Assembly: GCA_018402525.1 (NCBI GenBank)
Contig: JAGYIR010000009.1
Location: forward strand, 62,001-126,000
From: Crocinitomicaceae bacterium
GTDB taxonomy: Bacteria > Bacteroidota > Bacteroidia > Flavobacteriales_D > Crocinitomicaceae
Length of the DNA: 64,000 nt
Reading direction: 5' to 3'
In this document: piece by piece, positions 45,577 to 55,366 of the stretch
How the letters are laid out: each line of letters begins with the position of its first letter
Numbering within the stretch: position 1 is the stretch's first letter
Notes under the pieces: model-generated
What the model was told of the DNA's origin: nothing
What the model saw: the letters and a program-made list of their open reading frames with translations, nothing else
Database searches by the model: none
Translations under genes and position numbers: made by a program

Positions 45577-47278
45577 ATGAAAAAGAATAACATGAAAGTT
45601 TTAGCCCTTTTAGCCATTACTGGTACATTGGCTACAGGATGTCAGCTCTTAAAAGACGTTGACTATACAGTAACTCCTGATCCATTAGAGATGCACGGAG
45701 ATTCCGTACGAGTGAAAGTAGATATTACTTTTCCTGAGAAAGCATTGAACAAAAAAGCAGTTGTTGAAATCAATCCTTCGATTGGAGACGCAATGCTTAA
45801 ATCGATTACTGTTCAAGGTGAAAAAGCAACTGGTAACGGAAATGTTATTCAGTACAAGCCAGGTGGGACTGTTACCTACACTGATGTTGTTGCTTACAAC
45901 CCTTCAATGGAAGCTTCTGGTCTATTCGTAGAAGGAAGAGTTTTAAAAGGTTTAAAAGAAAAAGACCAGTTGGAAAAAACGAAAATTGCTGATGCAACGA
46001 TCATTACTCCATACTTGGTGCACAAAGATTTCAAAGTAATTATCGCAAAAGATGAATTCAGAAGAGTTACTGAAGAAACATTTGGAGCACAAATTAACTA
46101 TGATAAAGGTCGCTCTGAAGTAAAATCATCTGAAATGAAAGATGAAGACATCAAAGCTTACCAAGCATTTTTGGAAGGTGCACAAAGCAATCCAAAAATC
46201 GCTATCAAATCTATTAACGTGACTGGTTTCGCTTCTCCAGAAGGTGAAGAGGATAAAAACAATACGTTATCTACAGACAGAGCTAAAACAGGAACTGAAG
46301 CAGGAATGAAAGTTGCTAAAAATGCTAAGAATGAAGTTGCTTCAGGAGAAATCTACAATCAAACTGGAAGTGGTGAAGATTACCCAGGATTCAAAGCTAT
46401 GTTGAATGCGGACAGTGCAAATGAACGAAGACGATAAGAACTTGGTTCTACGTGTTCTTGAAACAATTTCTGGTTCTGCTGAGCGTGAGCAAGCTATGAG
46501 AGATATGGGTAAAACATTTACTTACCTGGATAAAAACATCTTCCCAGCCTTGCGTCGTGCTGAATTGGTAATCGTTTATGACAAAACTGGATATTCTGAT
46601 GAAGAGTTAAAAGCATTGTCTGTTTCTAATCCAGATACGTTGAATCTTGAAGAGTTGTTGTTTACTGCTGCTTTGTCATCTGATTTGAACGAGCAATTGA
46701 GAATTTACAAAATTGCTGAAACAAGATTCCCTGAAGATTACAGAACTTCAAACAACGTTGGTGCTGTATTGTACATGCAAAACAAAATGTCTGAAGCTAA
46801 ATCTCAATTTGAAAAAGCGAATGGAATTCAAGACAACCCAATTTCTAAGAACAACTTGGGTGCTATTGCTGGGGTTGAAGGTGATAGAACTAAATCAATG
46901 GAGTTGTTGAATCAAGCAAATGGTGCTGGATCTGAAGTTAGTTACAACAAAGGAATCCTTAACATTTTAGATGGAGATTACAGCGATGCTGTTTCTAACT
47001 TAGGTTCAGATGCTTCTTTTAACAAAGCATTGGCTGAAATGTTAAACGGTTCTGCGGCTTCAGTTGATGGAATCATTGACGGATCTGATGATGCTGATAC
47101 TGCTGAAGGTGCTTACTTGAAAGCTGTAGCTGCTGCACGTCAGGACAACTTGCAAGGAATTGTAGGAAGTTTGACAACTGCATTCTCTAAAGATGCTTCT
47201 TTAAAAGCGAAAGCTGCTAAAGACCGTGAGTTTGTAAAATATTTTGAAAATGCTTCTTTCACTGCTTTAGTGAAATAA
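45577..47278 (+). pseudogene. OmpA-like/TPR lipoprotein, split by a single-base frameshift
   Basis: Two overlapping frames (45577-46437 and 46406-47278) read as one protein. The first has a signal peptide with lipobox (LATGC) and ends in an OmpA-like domain (SINVTGFASPEGEEDKNNTLSTDRAKT). The second continues with NEDDKNLVLRVLE and then TPR-like repeats (FPEDYRTSNNVGAVLYMQNKMSEAKSQFEKA). The span is 1702 nt, one more than a multiple of three, and removing one A from the AAA in GTGCAAATGAACG near 46418 joins them into about 566 residues. Both halves keep good codon use. The frameshift could be a sequencing error, a recent mutation, or less likely programmed. Confidence 0.85.
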
Positions 47279-50503: not shown

Positions 50504-50538
50504 TTTGATTGTCAATCCCAACTTTGCTTTTATCTTTA
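50504..50538 (+). promoter_or_regulatory. clpP promoter (TTTG-N23-TATCTTTA)
   Basis: A TTTG at 50504-50507 and TATCTTTA at 50531-50538 (one mismatch to TAnnTTTG) lie 30 bases upstream of the clpP ATG. Confidence 0.45.
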
Positions 50539-50568
50539 ACGTTCATAACAACGAAACACAATTTTAGT

Positions 50569-51237
50569 ATGTTTGATAACAACGAATTTAGAAAATACGC
50601 CACTAAGCATATGGGGCTTAACAGCATGCATGTGGACAGCTATATTGAATCTTCGATAACACCATATATTATTGAAGAGCGTCAATTGAATATGACGCAA
50701 ATGGACGTTTTTTCGCGTCTGATGATGGATAGAATTATCTTTTTAGGAACAGGTATCAATGATTACGTTGCAAATATCATCAATGCGCAACTATTGTTTT
50801 TGGAATCTGTTGACAATAAAAAAGACATTCAAATCTATTTAAATTCACCAGGAGGTTCTGTTTATGCGGGATTGGGAATTTATGATACGATGCAATACAT
50901 CAATCCAGATGTCGCTACGATTTGTACTGGAATTGCTGCTTCCATGGGAGCTGTTTTATTATGTGCTGGAGCAGATGGGAAACGTTCTGCATTAAAGCAT
51001 TCACGTGTAATGATTCACCAACCACTTGGTGGAGCGCAAGGACAAGCATCTGATATCGAAATTACAGCGCGTGAGATTCAAAAATTGAAAAAAGAGTTAT
51101 ACGATATTATCGCATATCACTCAAAACAAGATTACGAAAAGGTTTGGGCAGATTCTGACAGAGATTACTGGATGACTTCTGGAGAAGCTAAAGAATACGG
51201 AATGGTGGACGAAGTTTTGCTTCGTAACCCTAAATAA
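50569..51237 (+). CDS. clpP: ATP-dependent Clp protease proteolytic subunit
   Basis: A 222-residue serine protease subunit. The catalytic Ser is in [11 protein letters not shown] and the His in [11 protein letters not shown], with the Asp in the later [10 protein letters not shown] region. The start [16 protein letters not shown] fits the family; the frame is open upstream to 50509 but that part lies in the promoter. It forms a tetradecamer that degrades unfolded or tagged proteins with ClpX, encoded next. Confidence 0.96.
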
Positions 51238-51247
51238 CATACTTTTG
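51216..51247 (+). promoter_or_regulatory. clpX promoter (TTTG-N20-TACTTTTG), inside the end of clpP
   Basis: TTTG (51216-51219), 20 bases, then TACTTTTG (51240-51247) is an excellent match to the Bacteroidota consensus. It overlaps the last codons of clpP and would give clpX its own promoter. Confidence 0.65.
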
Positions 51248-51257
51248 TAACACGAAG

Positions 51258-51290
51258 AGCCCTATTCGCCCCGTGCGGATAGGCTTTTTT
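51258..51290 (+). terminator. hairpin with T-run between the clpX promoter and the clpX start
   Basis: AGCC-C-TATTCGC (51258-51269) pairs with GCGGATA-GGCT (51275-51285), with one bulged C and a 5-nt loop, followed by six T. It is positioned as a clpP terminator but lies downstream of the clpX promoter box, so it could attenuate clpX transcription. Confidence 0.7.
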
Positions 51291-51305
51291 GTCAAAACTA
51301 ATAAC

Positions 51306-52526
51306 ATGGCGAAGAAAGAAACAGGTTGTTCATTTTGTGGCAGATCTCGAGACGAGGTAGGAATGCTAATTGCGGGTGTATCGGGACATATATGTGAGAA
51401 TTGCGTAACGCAAGCACACTCGATTGTGAAGGAGGAGGACATCCAAGTCGAAAAAAACGACCTTGTTATCAACGTACTTAAACCAGCGGAAATCAAAGCT
51501 AAGTTGGACGAGTATGTGATTGGTCAAAATGATGCAAAAAAAGTACTTTCAGTCGCTGTATACAATCACTACAAACGATTGAACCAACCAGTTTCAAAAG
51601 ACGACGTTGAGATAGAAAAATCAAATGTGATCTTGGTTGGTCGCACAGGGACAGGAAAAACGTTACTTGCGAAGACGATTGCTAAAATGTTAAACGTTCC
51701 TTTTTGTATTGCAGATGCAACGGTATTGACAGAAGCAGGATACGTTGGTGAAGATGTTGAAAGCATTCTATCTCGCTTGTTACAAGCTGCAGATTTTAAT
51801 GTTTCCGCTGCGGAAAGAGGAATTGTTTTTGTTGATGAAATAGATAAAATTGCACGTAAAAGTGATAATCCTTCAATTACCAGAGATGTTTCTGGAGAAG
51901 GTGTTCAACAAGCGCTTTTAAAGCTATTGGAAGGTGCAGTTGTAAGTGTTCCACCGCAAGGAGGAAGAAAACACCCTGAGCAAAAAATGATTTCCATCGA
52001 CACGAAAAACATTCTGTTTGTCTGTGGCGGTGCATTTGACGGCGTAGAGCGAATCATTGCAAATCGTGTTAATCGACAGACTATTGGTTTTTCATCATCT
52101 GATGAAGAGCGCGTGGATAAAGAATCGTTGTTGAAATACATCAATCCAACGGACATTAAAACATTTGGACTTATACCCGAATTGATCGGTCGTTTTCCAG
52201 TTTTAACTTACTTAGAACCACTTGATGCAGATGCACTGCGATTGATCCTTACTGAGCCTAAAAATGCGTTGGTGAAGCAATACGTGCGCTTGTTTGAAAT
52301 CGATGGGATTGATCTAAAAATGGACAAAGACGTATTAGATTTTATTGTCGAAAAGGCGCTTGAGTTTAAATTGGGGGCACGTGGATTGCGTTCAATTTGC
52401 GAGGCTATTCTAAACAATGCAATGTTTGATCTTCCTTCTCAAAATGAAACATCATTCCGAGTGACATTGGACTACGCACGTAGACAATTCTCAGGTTCAA
52501 AAATTGCTAAATTGCGTGTTGCGTAA
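51306..52526 (+). CDS. clpX: ATP-dependent Clp protease ATP-binding subunit ClpX
   Basis: A 406-residue AAA+ unfoldase. The N-terminal zinc-binding domain ([17 protein letters not shown] ... ICENC), the Walker A GRTGTGKT and Walker [11 protein letters not shown] motifs, the GYVGEDVE pore-loop region, and the IGF tripeptide loop (QTIGFSS) that docks on ClpP are visible. The start at 51306 begins the zinc domain; the upstream ATG at 51273 falls inside the hairpin. It lies 68 bases after clpP. Confidence 0.97.
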
Positions 52527-52534
52527 TTTTTCGA

Positions 52535-53203
52535 TCAGCTAATTTTAAACTTACAGTATTTTATTACTGATCCCTTTGCTGTGAACAGCTGTTCGTAGTG
52601 TGTTTTTATATGAAATATTTCACGTGTAACAGGATCTATATTTTCTGGTAATTCACCATACAAATCCCATGTTAACTCCAAACACTCATAATTATTCAGT
52701 TTGATCTGCTCTTCAGTATATTCAAAAAGTAAATCGCTGTCTGTTTTCATGTGAATGATTCCACCCGGCTTTAATATTTTTCTGTACCGCTCAATAAAAG
52801 GTGGAGACGACAAGCGCTTATTTTCTTTTTTTGGTTGCGGATCAGAAAAAGTCAACCAAATTTCATCCACTTCTCCTGCTTCAAAGCAATCGGCAATAAA
52901 ATCTATTCGTGTACGCAAAAACGCGACGTTCTCCATTTTAGAATTCAGTGCTTGTTCTGCACCAATGAACATCCGTGCTCCTTTAATGTCGACACCAATG
53001 AAGTTCTTTTCTGGATAAAAATTCCCTAAACCAACGGAATATTCACCCTTTCCACAACCTAACTCCAAGACAATAGGATGATCATTCTTAAAATGATCCT
53101 TTCTCCAATTTCCCTTCATGTGAAAGGGCTCACCAATGACAGGTTCAAAAAAATTGTCAAACGATTTTACTGCCGCAAATCTTCTAATTTTATCTTTTCC
53201 CAT
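52535..53203 (-). CDS. trmB: tRNA (guanine46-N7)-methyltransferase
   Basis: A 222-residue SAM-dependent methyltransferase. The SAM motif VLELGCGKGEYSVGLG, then FIGVDIKGARM, the IWLTFSDPQPKKENKR motif that binds tRNA, and GGIIHMKTDSD near residue 157 all match TrmB. It lies two bases from the start of the DUF2797 remnant and is convergent with clpX with an 8-base gap. Confidence 0.95.
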   Translation of the reverse strand: MGKDKIRRFAAVKSFDNFFEPVIGEPFHMKGNWRKDHFKNDHPIVLELGCGKGEYSVGLGNFYPEKNFIGVDIKGARMFIGAEQALNSKMENVAFLRTRIDFIADCFEAGEVDEIWLTFSDPQPKKENKRLSSPPFIERYRKILKPGGIIHMKTDSDLLFEYTEEQIKLNNYECLELTWDLYGELPENIDPVTREIFHIKTHYEQLFTAKGSVIKYCKFKIS

Positions 53204-53204
53204 A

Positions 53205-54000
53205 CTAAAAACTCAAATCAATGTGGTAGCTCGTATGCTTTCGAATATTCACCACTTCACCTCCTTCAAACAGCAAGTATTGTCCTTTAATTCCCTCAAG
53301 TACACCTTCAATTATCGCCGTTTTATCAAACGAGCGACTGATAATTTTCTCTGGATAGCGGAGTACTGGATAATTCAATTCAATAATTTCATCGTTTTCC
53401 GAAAACTGATCCAGAATATCATTGGGTAAATGCTCCTCCAATGTCCATTTCTCTTCAACTAAATCAATCGTATCGTCTAGGTCATTCTTCAGCATTTTTT
53501 GCCAATTCGTTTTGTCGGTGAAGAATTCCTTTAGCGCCATTTCAATTCGTCCAGCTTCGTAGCGATTTGCTGTTTCTGCCAAACGAATTGCGCTACTAGC
53601 TCCTTGATCAATCCAACGCGTTGGGATTTGTTTGCTTCGTGTAATTCCAACTTTCACCAGCACTCAGACGCTGCCAAATAAACGATATGAGGTTGATTGT
53701 GGTGTTTTTCTTCCCATTCGGGATCTCTGCCCTCACCTACATGGGCGCGACAGAGTTCTGGACGCAAAATGCATTCAGATGATTCAGGAGCATTCATAAA
53801 ACAGCTGTAGCAAAATCCTTGTCCAAATGAGTTCTTGGTCTTCTTACCACACGCACAACAGTGAATATCTCCGCTCCAATTCAATGAAATCTTGTTACCT
53901 ATCAGTGCGTTCATGTCGACAATCTCCGAAAGTCTGCAAGTAGTAATGCACTTGATCTTCCAGCTTGTGCAGACATCTTAGATAAATTCCCACTCACCAT
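53205..54000 (-). pseudogene. DUF2797 family protein, broken by three apparent frameshifts
   Basis: The region encodes pieces of one DUF2797 protein in three frames. From ATG 53998-54000: MVSGNLSKMSAQ; then LEDQVHYYLQTF in a second frame; then EIVDMNALIGNKISLNW...IHCCACGKKTKNSFGQGFCYSC...LRPELCRAH in a third; then VKVGITRSKQIPTRWIDQGASS to the end, back in the second. The joins are an extra A near 53965, an extra G near 53926 and a missing G near 53658. Corrected, it gives about 264 residues with the expected CxxC zinc-type motifs. It lies six bases after gldC, suggesting a gldB-gldC-DUF2797-trmB transcript. Confidence 0.85.
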
Positions 54001-54006
54001 ACTCGT

Positions 54007-54353
54007 CTACTCTTCTGGCAAAATGTTCATCTTCTCTGCAAAGTGGTAACAATAATCACGTAAGTCCTCGCTGATATTTGCTTCACCAGTAGCCCTTTCA
54101 AAGGTATCCGCCATTGTCAGCAACGTTTGATGAAAAAACTGTTTCATTTCTTCGACGGACAGATCTTTCGTCCAGAGGTCAATTTTCAACGTGTTATTCT
54201 CTTTGGATCCCAAATGGACATCAACAGTGCACTAGCTTCTGCATTGGTCACTGAACCATCAGGCGCTGTCCAATTCATTCGAATCGGTAAATTATTTGAA
54301 TTCAACCCCACTTTTACTGAAATCTCAGAGGTCTTTACAATTTTATCTTCCAT
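54007..54353 (-). pseudogene. gldC: GldC, with an apparent single-base deletion
   Basis: From ATG at 54353 the frame reads MEDKIVKTSEISVKVGLN...SALLMSIWDPK and then stops early; the next frame takes over with ENNTLKIDLWTKDLSVEEMKQFFHQTLL and MADTFERATGE. The second piece is the GldC C-terminal half and the first the N-terminal half. One base is missing within GATCC-AAAGAG near 54207-54209 (span 347 nt, one short of a multiple of three). Corrected, it is about 115 residues, the family's normal size. GldC supports gliding but is not essential in Flavobacterium. Confidence 0.85.
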
Positions 54354-54354
54354 A

Positions 54355-55366
54355 TCAATCTATTTCGTAGGCTTGTAAAATTTCGTTGTACGGTAGTTCA
54401 ATCAACTCCTTTACCGTAATATCATTTTGCTTCATGTACAGAGTGAATCATTCTCCAGCCAATGAACTGTCCCAAACGGTCAGGACCTTCTTGATTTGGC
54501 AAACCGGGCGTAAATGGCCCTTCACCTATCATGTTAGCTGTCGTTTTCTCGTCAATTTTGAAGAGTAATTTCTCGTCCGTCAAATATTTCCAGAAGGCAT
54601 ACTCGTTTTCCAGTGCCCATTCATAATCGTCTTTCGAATAACGCAAAATAAGAGCTGGATCTTCATGAGGAAAAGCTGCCTCGGTGAGATAAAGTACTTT
54701 TCCAGCGCGTACCATGTGTTCGGCCAGCGATCCGTCAACTTCTTCCAGGTAATGCGTTTCGATCCAACCTGTTAAGACATCACGCTCTAAATATTTTGCA
54801 TCCATCGCCTTTTTCATCCAGTCAAAATAATACGCAGGATTCAACTGCTTTACGACGTCATTTTCTGCACCTAAAAATCGATCCAAGCCAATACCAATCT
54901 CATTTTCAGTGCAAAACACACCAGAATTGAACAACAAATTCATATAAGCAATATTCTTTGGCTGCTTTCCATCTGGGAAATGATACTTCAAGTGTTTAAA
55001 CCCTTCGGTGATTTTTTCGTTCATTTTGGATTTATCTCCAAACTTCGATTGAATACCATTTTCCAACTTCTGAATCATGGTATCTGCACGAAACTGCAGG
55101 ATGCTGTTGTAAAATGCTGAATCTACCACATCACCAATTCGCATGCAGTATCCAATTTGATAGGCATAAATATCTACAATCTCCTTTTTGAATTTTTGAT
55201 GACGCTGAATCAATGTCGCTGAATCCGAGTAAAACAAAACTGAATCGACGTTTACAAAGTTTAAGTCAACCTTGATACTCGTAGCGTCGACATTAAGTGG
55301 ATTACGCGTGCAGCCAACAAGTAACGCAAATAATAAGAATGAAAAAGATATTTTTCTTAGAATCAT
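54355..55366 (-). pseudogene. gldB: GldB lipoprotein, with an apparent single-base insertion near the end
   Basis: The main frame encodes a lipoprotein (LLVGCTRNP) with the GldB domain (YHFPDGKQPKNIAYMNLLFNSGVFC; IGIGLDRFLG) through GWRMIHS, then ends with VHEAK-stop. The other frame continues in family-like fashion: YMKQNDITVKELIELPYNE to a TGA at 54355. The span of 1012 nt exceeds a multiple of three by one, and the extra base is near 54439. Corrected, it is about 336 residues. Its own promoter box lies at 55389-55396. GldB is needed for gliding and T9SS in Flavobacterium, so a true loss would be surprising. Confidence 0.87.

Follow-up and report, generated by a model that had tools for sequence, protein, structure and literature searches.

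In the available part of their study, Cooley and Wright (2024, PMC11017572) trace many putative pseudogenes of bacteria to errors of assembly, which they link to low coverage or quality. Long-read errors are described as mainly homopolymer indels, and false deletions were the majority in the main test assembly of the Kastor study, whose accessible text also states that insertion errors in bacterial assemblies often occur after A or T, with no particular homopolymer, and that indel density ranged from 0.13 to 34.23 per 100 kb in the assemblies other than the eukaryote (PMC12007338). In Flavobacterium johnsoniae, GldB is essential for gliding, and the type IX secretion system is defective when GldB is absent (PMC9127263, in the passages accessible to us).

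We analysed a window of 64,000 nucleotides (bases 62001-126000 of contig 5) from the draft genome of a Crocinitomicaceae bacterium, which consists of 3,157,214 bases in 19 contigs and is 98.3% complete. Three adjacent genes of this window, gldB, gldC and a gene of the DUF2797 family, had been predicted to carry five frame breaks; these breaks are present, and the genes are readable only by changing frame five times. As in gliding Bacteroidota, there are matches to the GldB and GldC profiles, and the genes follow one another as gldB-gldC-DUF2797, the order found at the loci of relatives, whereas the frames are broken, among the genomes searched, in this draft only. The locus resembles the spurious pseudogenes of Cooley and Wright (PMC11017572), as these are presented in the available part of the paper, in that the frameshifts affect genes that are whole in relatives and occur at a rate above that of comparable genomes; it differs in that whole assemblies with annotation and metadata were counted there, whereas we compared sequences alone. 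As in the accessible text of the Kastor study (PMC12007338), single-base indels are revealed via relatives, and our density of about 5.6 per 100 kb lies within the range given there. In contrast, homopolymers dominate in that study and false deletions prevail in its main test assembly, whereas here there are mostly extra bases.

Layout of the broken genes

The breaks were placed by frame-aware alignment to the intact proteins of relatives and by DNA alignment to G019, the closest of the 40 genomes searched (its GldB is 70% identical). The pieces of the three genes, their neighbour and the patch of indels are the following.

54422..55366, minus strand: gldB, main open part, listed with 314 aa, of which about 309 residues agree with relatives
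54358..54438, minus strand: gldB, final 27 codons, shifted to a different frame, where the identity to G019 is 85%
54186..54353, minus strand: gldC, first piece, PF19937 profile positions 1-30, E 0.0003, below the gathering score
54007..54213, minus strand: gldC, second piece, PF19937 profile positions 29-89
53930..54000, minus strand: DUF2797 gene, N-terminal stretch with two frame crossings, from alignment with G019 and G002
53654..53914, minus strand: DUF2797 gene, middle piece, PF10977 profile positions 1-79
53205..53663, minus strand: DUF2797 gene, C-terminal piece, PF10977 profile positions 81-227
52535..53203, minus strand: open neighbour of the Methyltransf_4 family, trmB-like, PF02390, E 6.2e-27
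53650..54445, no strand: patch holding all five (or six) indels, from frame-aware protein and DNA alignments

The family profiles of GldB, GldC and DUF2797 are matched over the family length, but piecewise. The main part of gldB matches Pfam PF25594 (E 1.2e-60, positions 2-279 of 309 of the profile) and still passes NCBIfam TIGR03514 despite the break (193 bits for a cut-off of 190); beyond the break lie only the last 27 of 336 codons, as counted in G019. For the C-terminal piece of the DUF2797 gene, the top named record among the best 80 of 146 matches is a metagenome bin named "Crocinitomicaceae bacterium" (65% identical). The original prediction spoke of three Gld-linked functions; DUF2797 is an operon neighbour only and not a Gld protein. 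The GC content is 0.413 in the patch and 0.391 in the window.

All five breaks concern the minus strand. In gldB there is a net +1 at about 54439 and in gldC a net -1 at about 54200-54208, in agreement with the extra base announced near 54439 and the missing one near 54208. The alignments of the DUF2797 gene with G019 and G002 give a net +1 at about 53958-53964, which corresponds to the extra A expected near 53965, and another net +1 at about 53936; the latter had been described as an extra G near 53926, and while the gain of a base stands, its position is different. The last break, at about 53659, had been attributed to a missing G near 53658. The break is indeed there, but its type is ambiguous, since a net -1 and a net +2 explain it equally well and both alignments prefer +2. 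The number of indels in the cluster is thus five or six. Seven other breaks were found in the approximately 212 kb of comparable sequence described below, which leads to an expectation of 0.026 breaks per 800 bases and to a Poisson probability of about 1e-10 for at least five. Such a density greatly exceeds what chance would produce in this draft.

The same genes in relatives

Comparison with the same locus in related genomes had been suggested as a check on the breaks. We found that the DUF2797 profile is covered in a single frame in 31 of the 33 other genomes of the genus (one genome per species), the gene being cut by contig ends in one of the remaining two and not found in the other. GldC is also whole in 31 of the 33, and not found in two. 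None of these 33 genomes has the breaks of DUF2797 or GldC. GldB is open, with frames of 335-354 aa, in 22 of the 24 same-genus genomes searched, and was not found in the other two. Most relatives therefore keep the genes whole.

We then considered selection between the breaks. In comparison with G019, the roughly 226 codons of the patch have a pN/pS ratio of 0.133, and the roughly 457 codons outside it a ratio of 0.216. These figures are rough because synonymous changes are near saturation, and they would not reveal a very recent loss. They show no sign of relaxed selection, and the absence of missense decay noted from the sequence holds.

These observations bear on the possibility that the breaks are real and that the end of gldB, gldC and DUF2797 are very recent pseudogenes, just lost via several small indels, before substitutions could accumulate. 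The breaks are present in the sequence as given, and a loss this recent is not expected to show substitution decay. Yet five or six indels within 0.8 kb, with no other damage, would be an odd path to inactivation, given that a broken gene is also free to accumulate substitutions. The intact genes of the other genus members also count against recent loss, as do the unbroken frames of the other gliding genes in the window: gldD, gldE, gldL, gldM and gldN, which had been reported as intact, all pass the NCBIfam cut-offs, and the frame of gldL continues unbroken past the window end. Since tilS and murB, of which the draft yielded one copy each, have similar breaks (see below), we regard recent loss of function as very unlikely.

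The patch could also be a metagenome chimera, i.e., a consensus that joined reads of at least two strains and acquired false indels at the joins. Many related contigs belong to metagenome bins according to their record titles, and the breaks are confined locally. However, DNA identity to G019, taken in steps of 100 bases, ranges from 0.58 to 0.88 across the three genes and does not change abruptly at the patch. In conserved coding sequence, strains would be expected to differ by substitutions or by entire codons. We thus consider a chimera very improbable; being a special form of assembly error, it overlaps with the explanation that we prefer, and the odds we attach to the different explanations do not sum to one.

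Frame breaks elsewhere in the draft

We sampled 778,604 bases of the draft (the window and 38 other stretches, about a quarter of the total) and compared them, using tblastn, with open frames taken from G019 (1,224,108 bases) and from five other relatives (360,000 bases). Sequence that matched at an identity of 45% or more was regarded as comparable, which amounted to 212,723 bases, or 27% of the sample. There are seven further frame breaks in this comparable sequence.

Window, 45577..47278, plus strand: broken gene with no family over the cut-off, net +1 at about 46416
L036, 6826 and 7645: breaks in a small gene and an epimerase-family gene
L048, 10725 and 15396: breaks in a phosphodiesterase-family gene and tilS
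L263, 18926 and 19578: breaks in a gene of the 139-aa kind and murB

The broken gene at 45577-47278, absent from the original prediction, has halves that are 80% and 85% identical to one protein of 566 aa in G019; it had no Pfam match, and its NCBIfam TPR match is below the cut-off. Together with the cluster, there are 12 breaks in 212.7 kb, or about 5.6 per 100 kb. The tblastn scan recovered 11 of these 12, the one at 53958-53964 being seen by the alignments only. Many are bunched, with five in 0.8 kb (the cluster), two in 0.82 kb (L036) and two in 0.65 kb (L263); the two breaks of L048 are separated by 4.7 kb, and that at 46416 is isolated. In terms of net change, eight of the events are +1, two are -1 (in gldC and in the phosphodiesterase-family gene) and two are either +2 or -1. 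Most sites are outside long homopolymers, although a run of G holds the -1 of L048 and a run of T the +1 of murB.

As a side observation, many of the extra bases in the cluster, L036, L048 and L263 appear to be G or C following T or A, an impression from ambiguous placements rather than from a formal count.

The reverse comparison covered 438,965 comparable bases, of which 176,837 belong to G019 and 262,128 to the five other relatives, and provided eight candidates: two in L162 and one each in L132, L136, L140, L143, L146 and L149. They are all antisense, six opposite gldC, one opposite murB and one opposite a gene near murB. Since they are antisense to genes that are broken in the draft, they are echoes of its broken frames, and we found no independent break in the 438,965 comparable bases of the relatives. 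The contrast between 12 breaks and none has a Fisher value of 1.2e-6 (with kb as trials), which is too optimistic because it treats bunched breaks as independent.

Some candidates within the window were rejected for lying on the strand opposite to real genes. This was the case for those at 51259 and 54358 in the wide scan (the plus-strand open reading frames at 50509-52526, opposite the former, are presumably clpP and clpX) and for those at 51270, 54357-54363 and 54436 in the scan of the window. In the latter, the candidate at 54132 corresponds to the gldC break, with its ends loosely placed, and those at 53657-53666 mix true ones with one that is antisense. An ab initio model of frame switches trained on the draft was abandoned, and no result rests on it. 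At a stricter setting it produced 11 frame changes on the same strand, most of them close to a start and a stop, and did not call the known cluster. At a looser one it gave five frameshift-like junctions in 424,000 bases of the draft and two in 385,013 bases of the relatives (33 and 17, respectively, for overlap-like junctions), with no break of the cluster classed as frameshift-like.

Two of the genes broken elsewhere are especially informative, as tilS and murB are normally essential in bacteria, as known from species other than this one. Each was found once in the draft and is split over two frames.

L048, 14394-15693 (contig C11 of the draft, G000): tilS
Contig C7 of the draft, 719266-720250, partly in L263: murB

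The next-best match to the TilS profile in the draft is TtcA (295 bits for a cut-off of 272). Of 23 other genomes, 20 have a whole TilS and three give no match above the cut-off; for murB, 18 have the whole gene and one a part of it, and in the other four it was not found. It is hard to believe that a living cell has tilS and murB both broken, and a faulty sequence is easier to accept.

Origin of the breaks

The comparisons suggest that the cluster is very probably an artefact, i.e., a patch of about 0.8 kb in which single-base indel errors were kept uncorrected. We favour this explanation because the genes are whole in relatives and because the same type of break affects normally essential genes of the draft. 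Of the two causes originally proposed, locally poor sequence data are thus well supported, with similar breaks elsewhere in the draft and no independent ones in the relatives, whereas very recent loss of function, with the removal of three Gld-linked functions, is not supported, given the intact genes of most genus members, the lack of signs of relaxed selection and the damage to genes unrelated to gliding. We found here what is expected from spurious pseudogenes: intact orthologues in close relatives and like breaks, absent from the controls, in unrelated genes that include normally essential ones. The fault would lie in the reads or in the consensus step, with errors of the long-read kind left uncorrected locally, and the draft would carry a moderate and patchy background of indel errors. 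The living cell would most likely have whole gldB, gldC and DUF2797 genes, in the order of the relatives. Some points fit less well with local sequence error. Extra bases prevail and most sites lie outside long homopolymers, which departs from the typical pattern of long-read errors. Many of the extra bases, as tentatively placed, are G or C, for which local error offers no ready explanation. Furthermore, a completeness of 98.3% means that most of the draft is sound, so that the patches need a local cause, and none is apparent.

Programmed or tolerated ribosomal frameshifting, by which the cell would read through breaks that are real in the DNA, could account for the majority of +1 changes and for the conservation of the protein on both sides of the breaks, but is extremely unlikely: by inspection, the shift points vary in their codons, have no slippery codon in common and lack stop codons, two sites are net -1, the orthologues of the relatives examined need no shift, and a general reading mechanism does not predict bunched breaks. 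It is just as hard to credit that the extra bases are real and that an unusual +1 reading by the ribosome or a tRNA tolerates breaks in many genes, including tilS and murB.

If the breaks result from local sequence error, their consequences are for annotation. It had been suggested that the breaks, if real, would remove three Gld-linked functions. A true loss of GldB and the others would matter, but the evidence gives no indication of it: the genes are kept by most of the genus, no relaxed selection is apparent, and genes outside the gliding set are damaged as well. The contrast between the broken gldB and gldC and the intact other gld genes needs no biological cause. The broken gliding genes of this draft should not be read as a loss of gliding or of type IX secretion. 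More generally, with one break in about every 18 kb of the comparable sequence, in bunches, any count of pseudogenes in this genome would be inflated.

Two minor observations concern the DUF2797 family. A second, distant protein of this family (frames of 299-312 aa) is present in seven of the 33 genus members (G006, G007, G008, G017, G023, G040 and G047). Finally, two contigs titled Candidatus Planktophila (L054) and Candidatus Nitrotoga (L120) encode DUF2797 genes close to those of Flavobacteriales, and are perhaps mislabelled or mis-binned.
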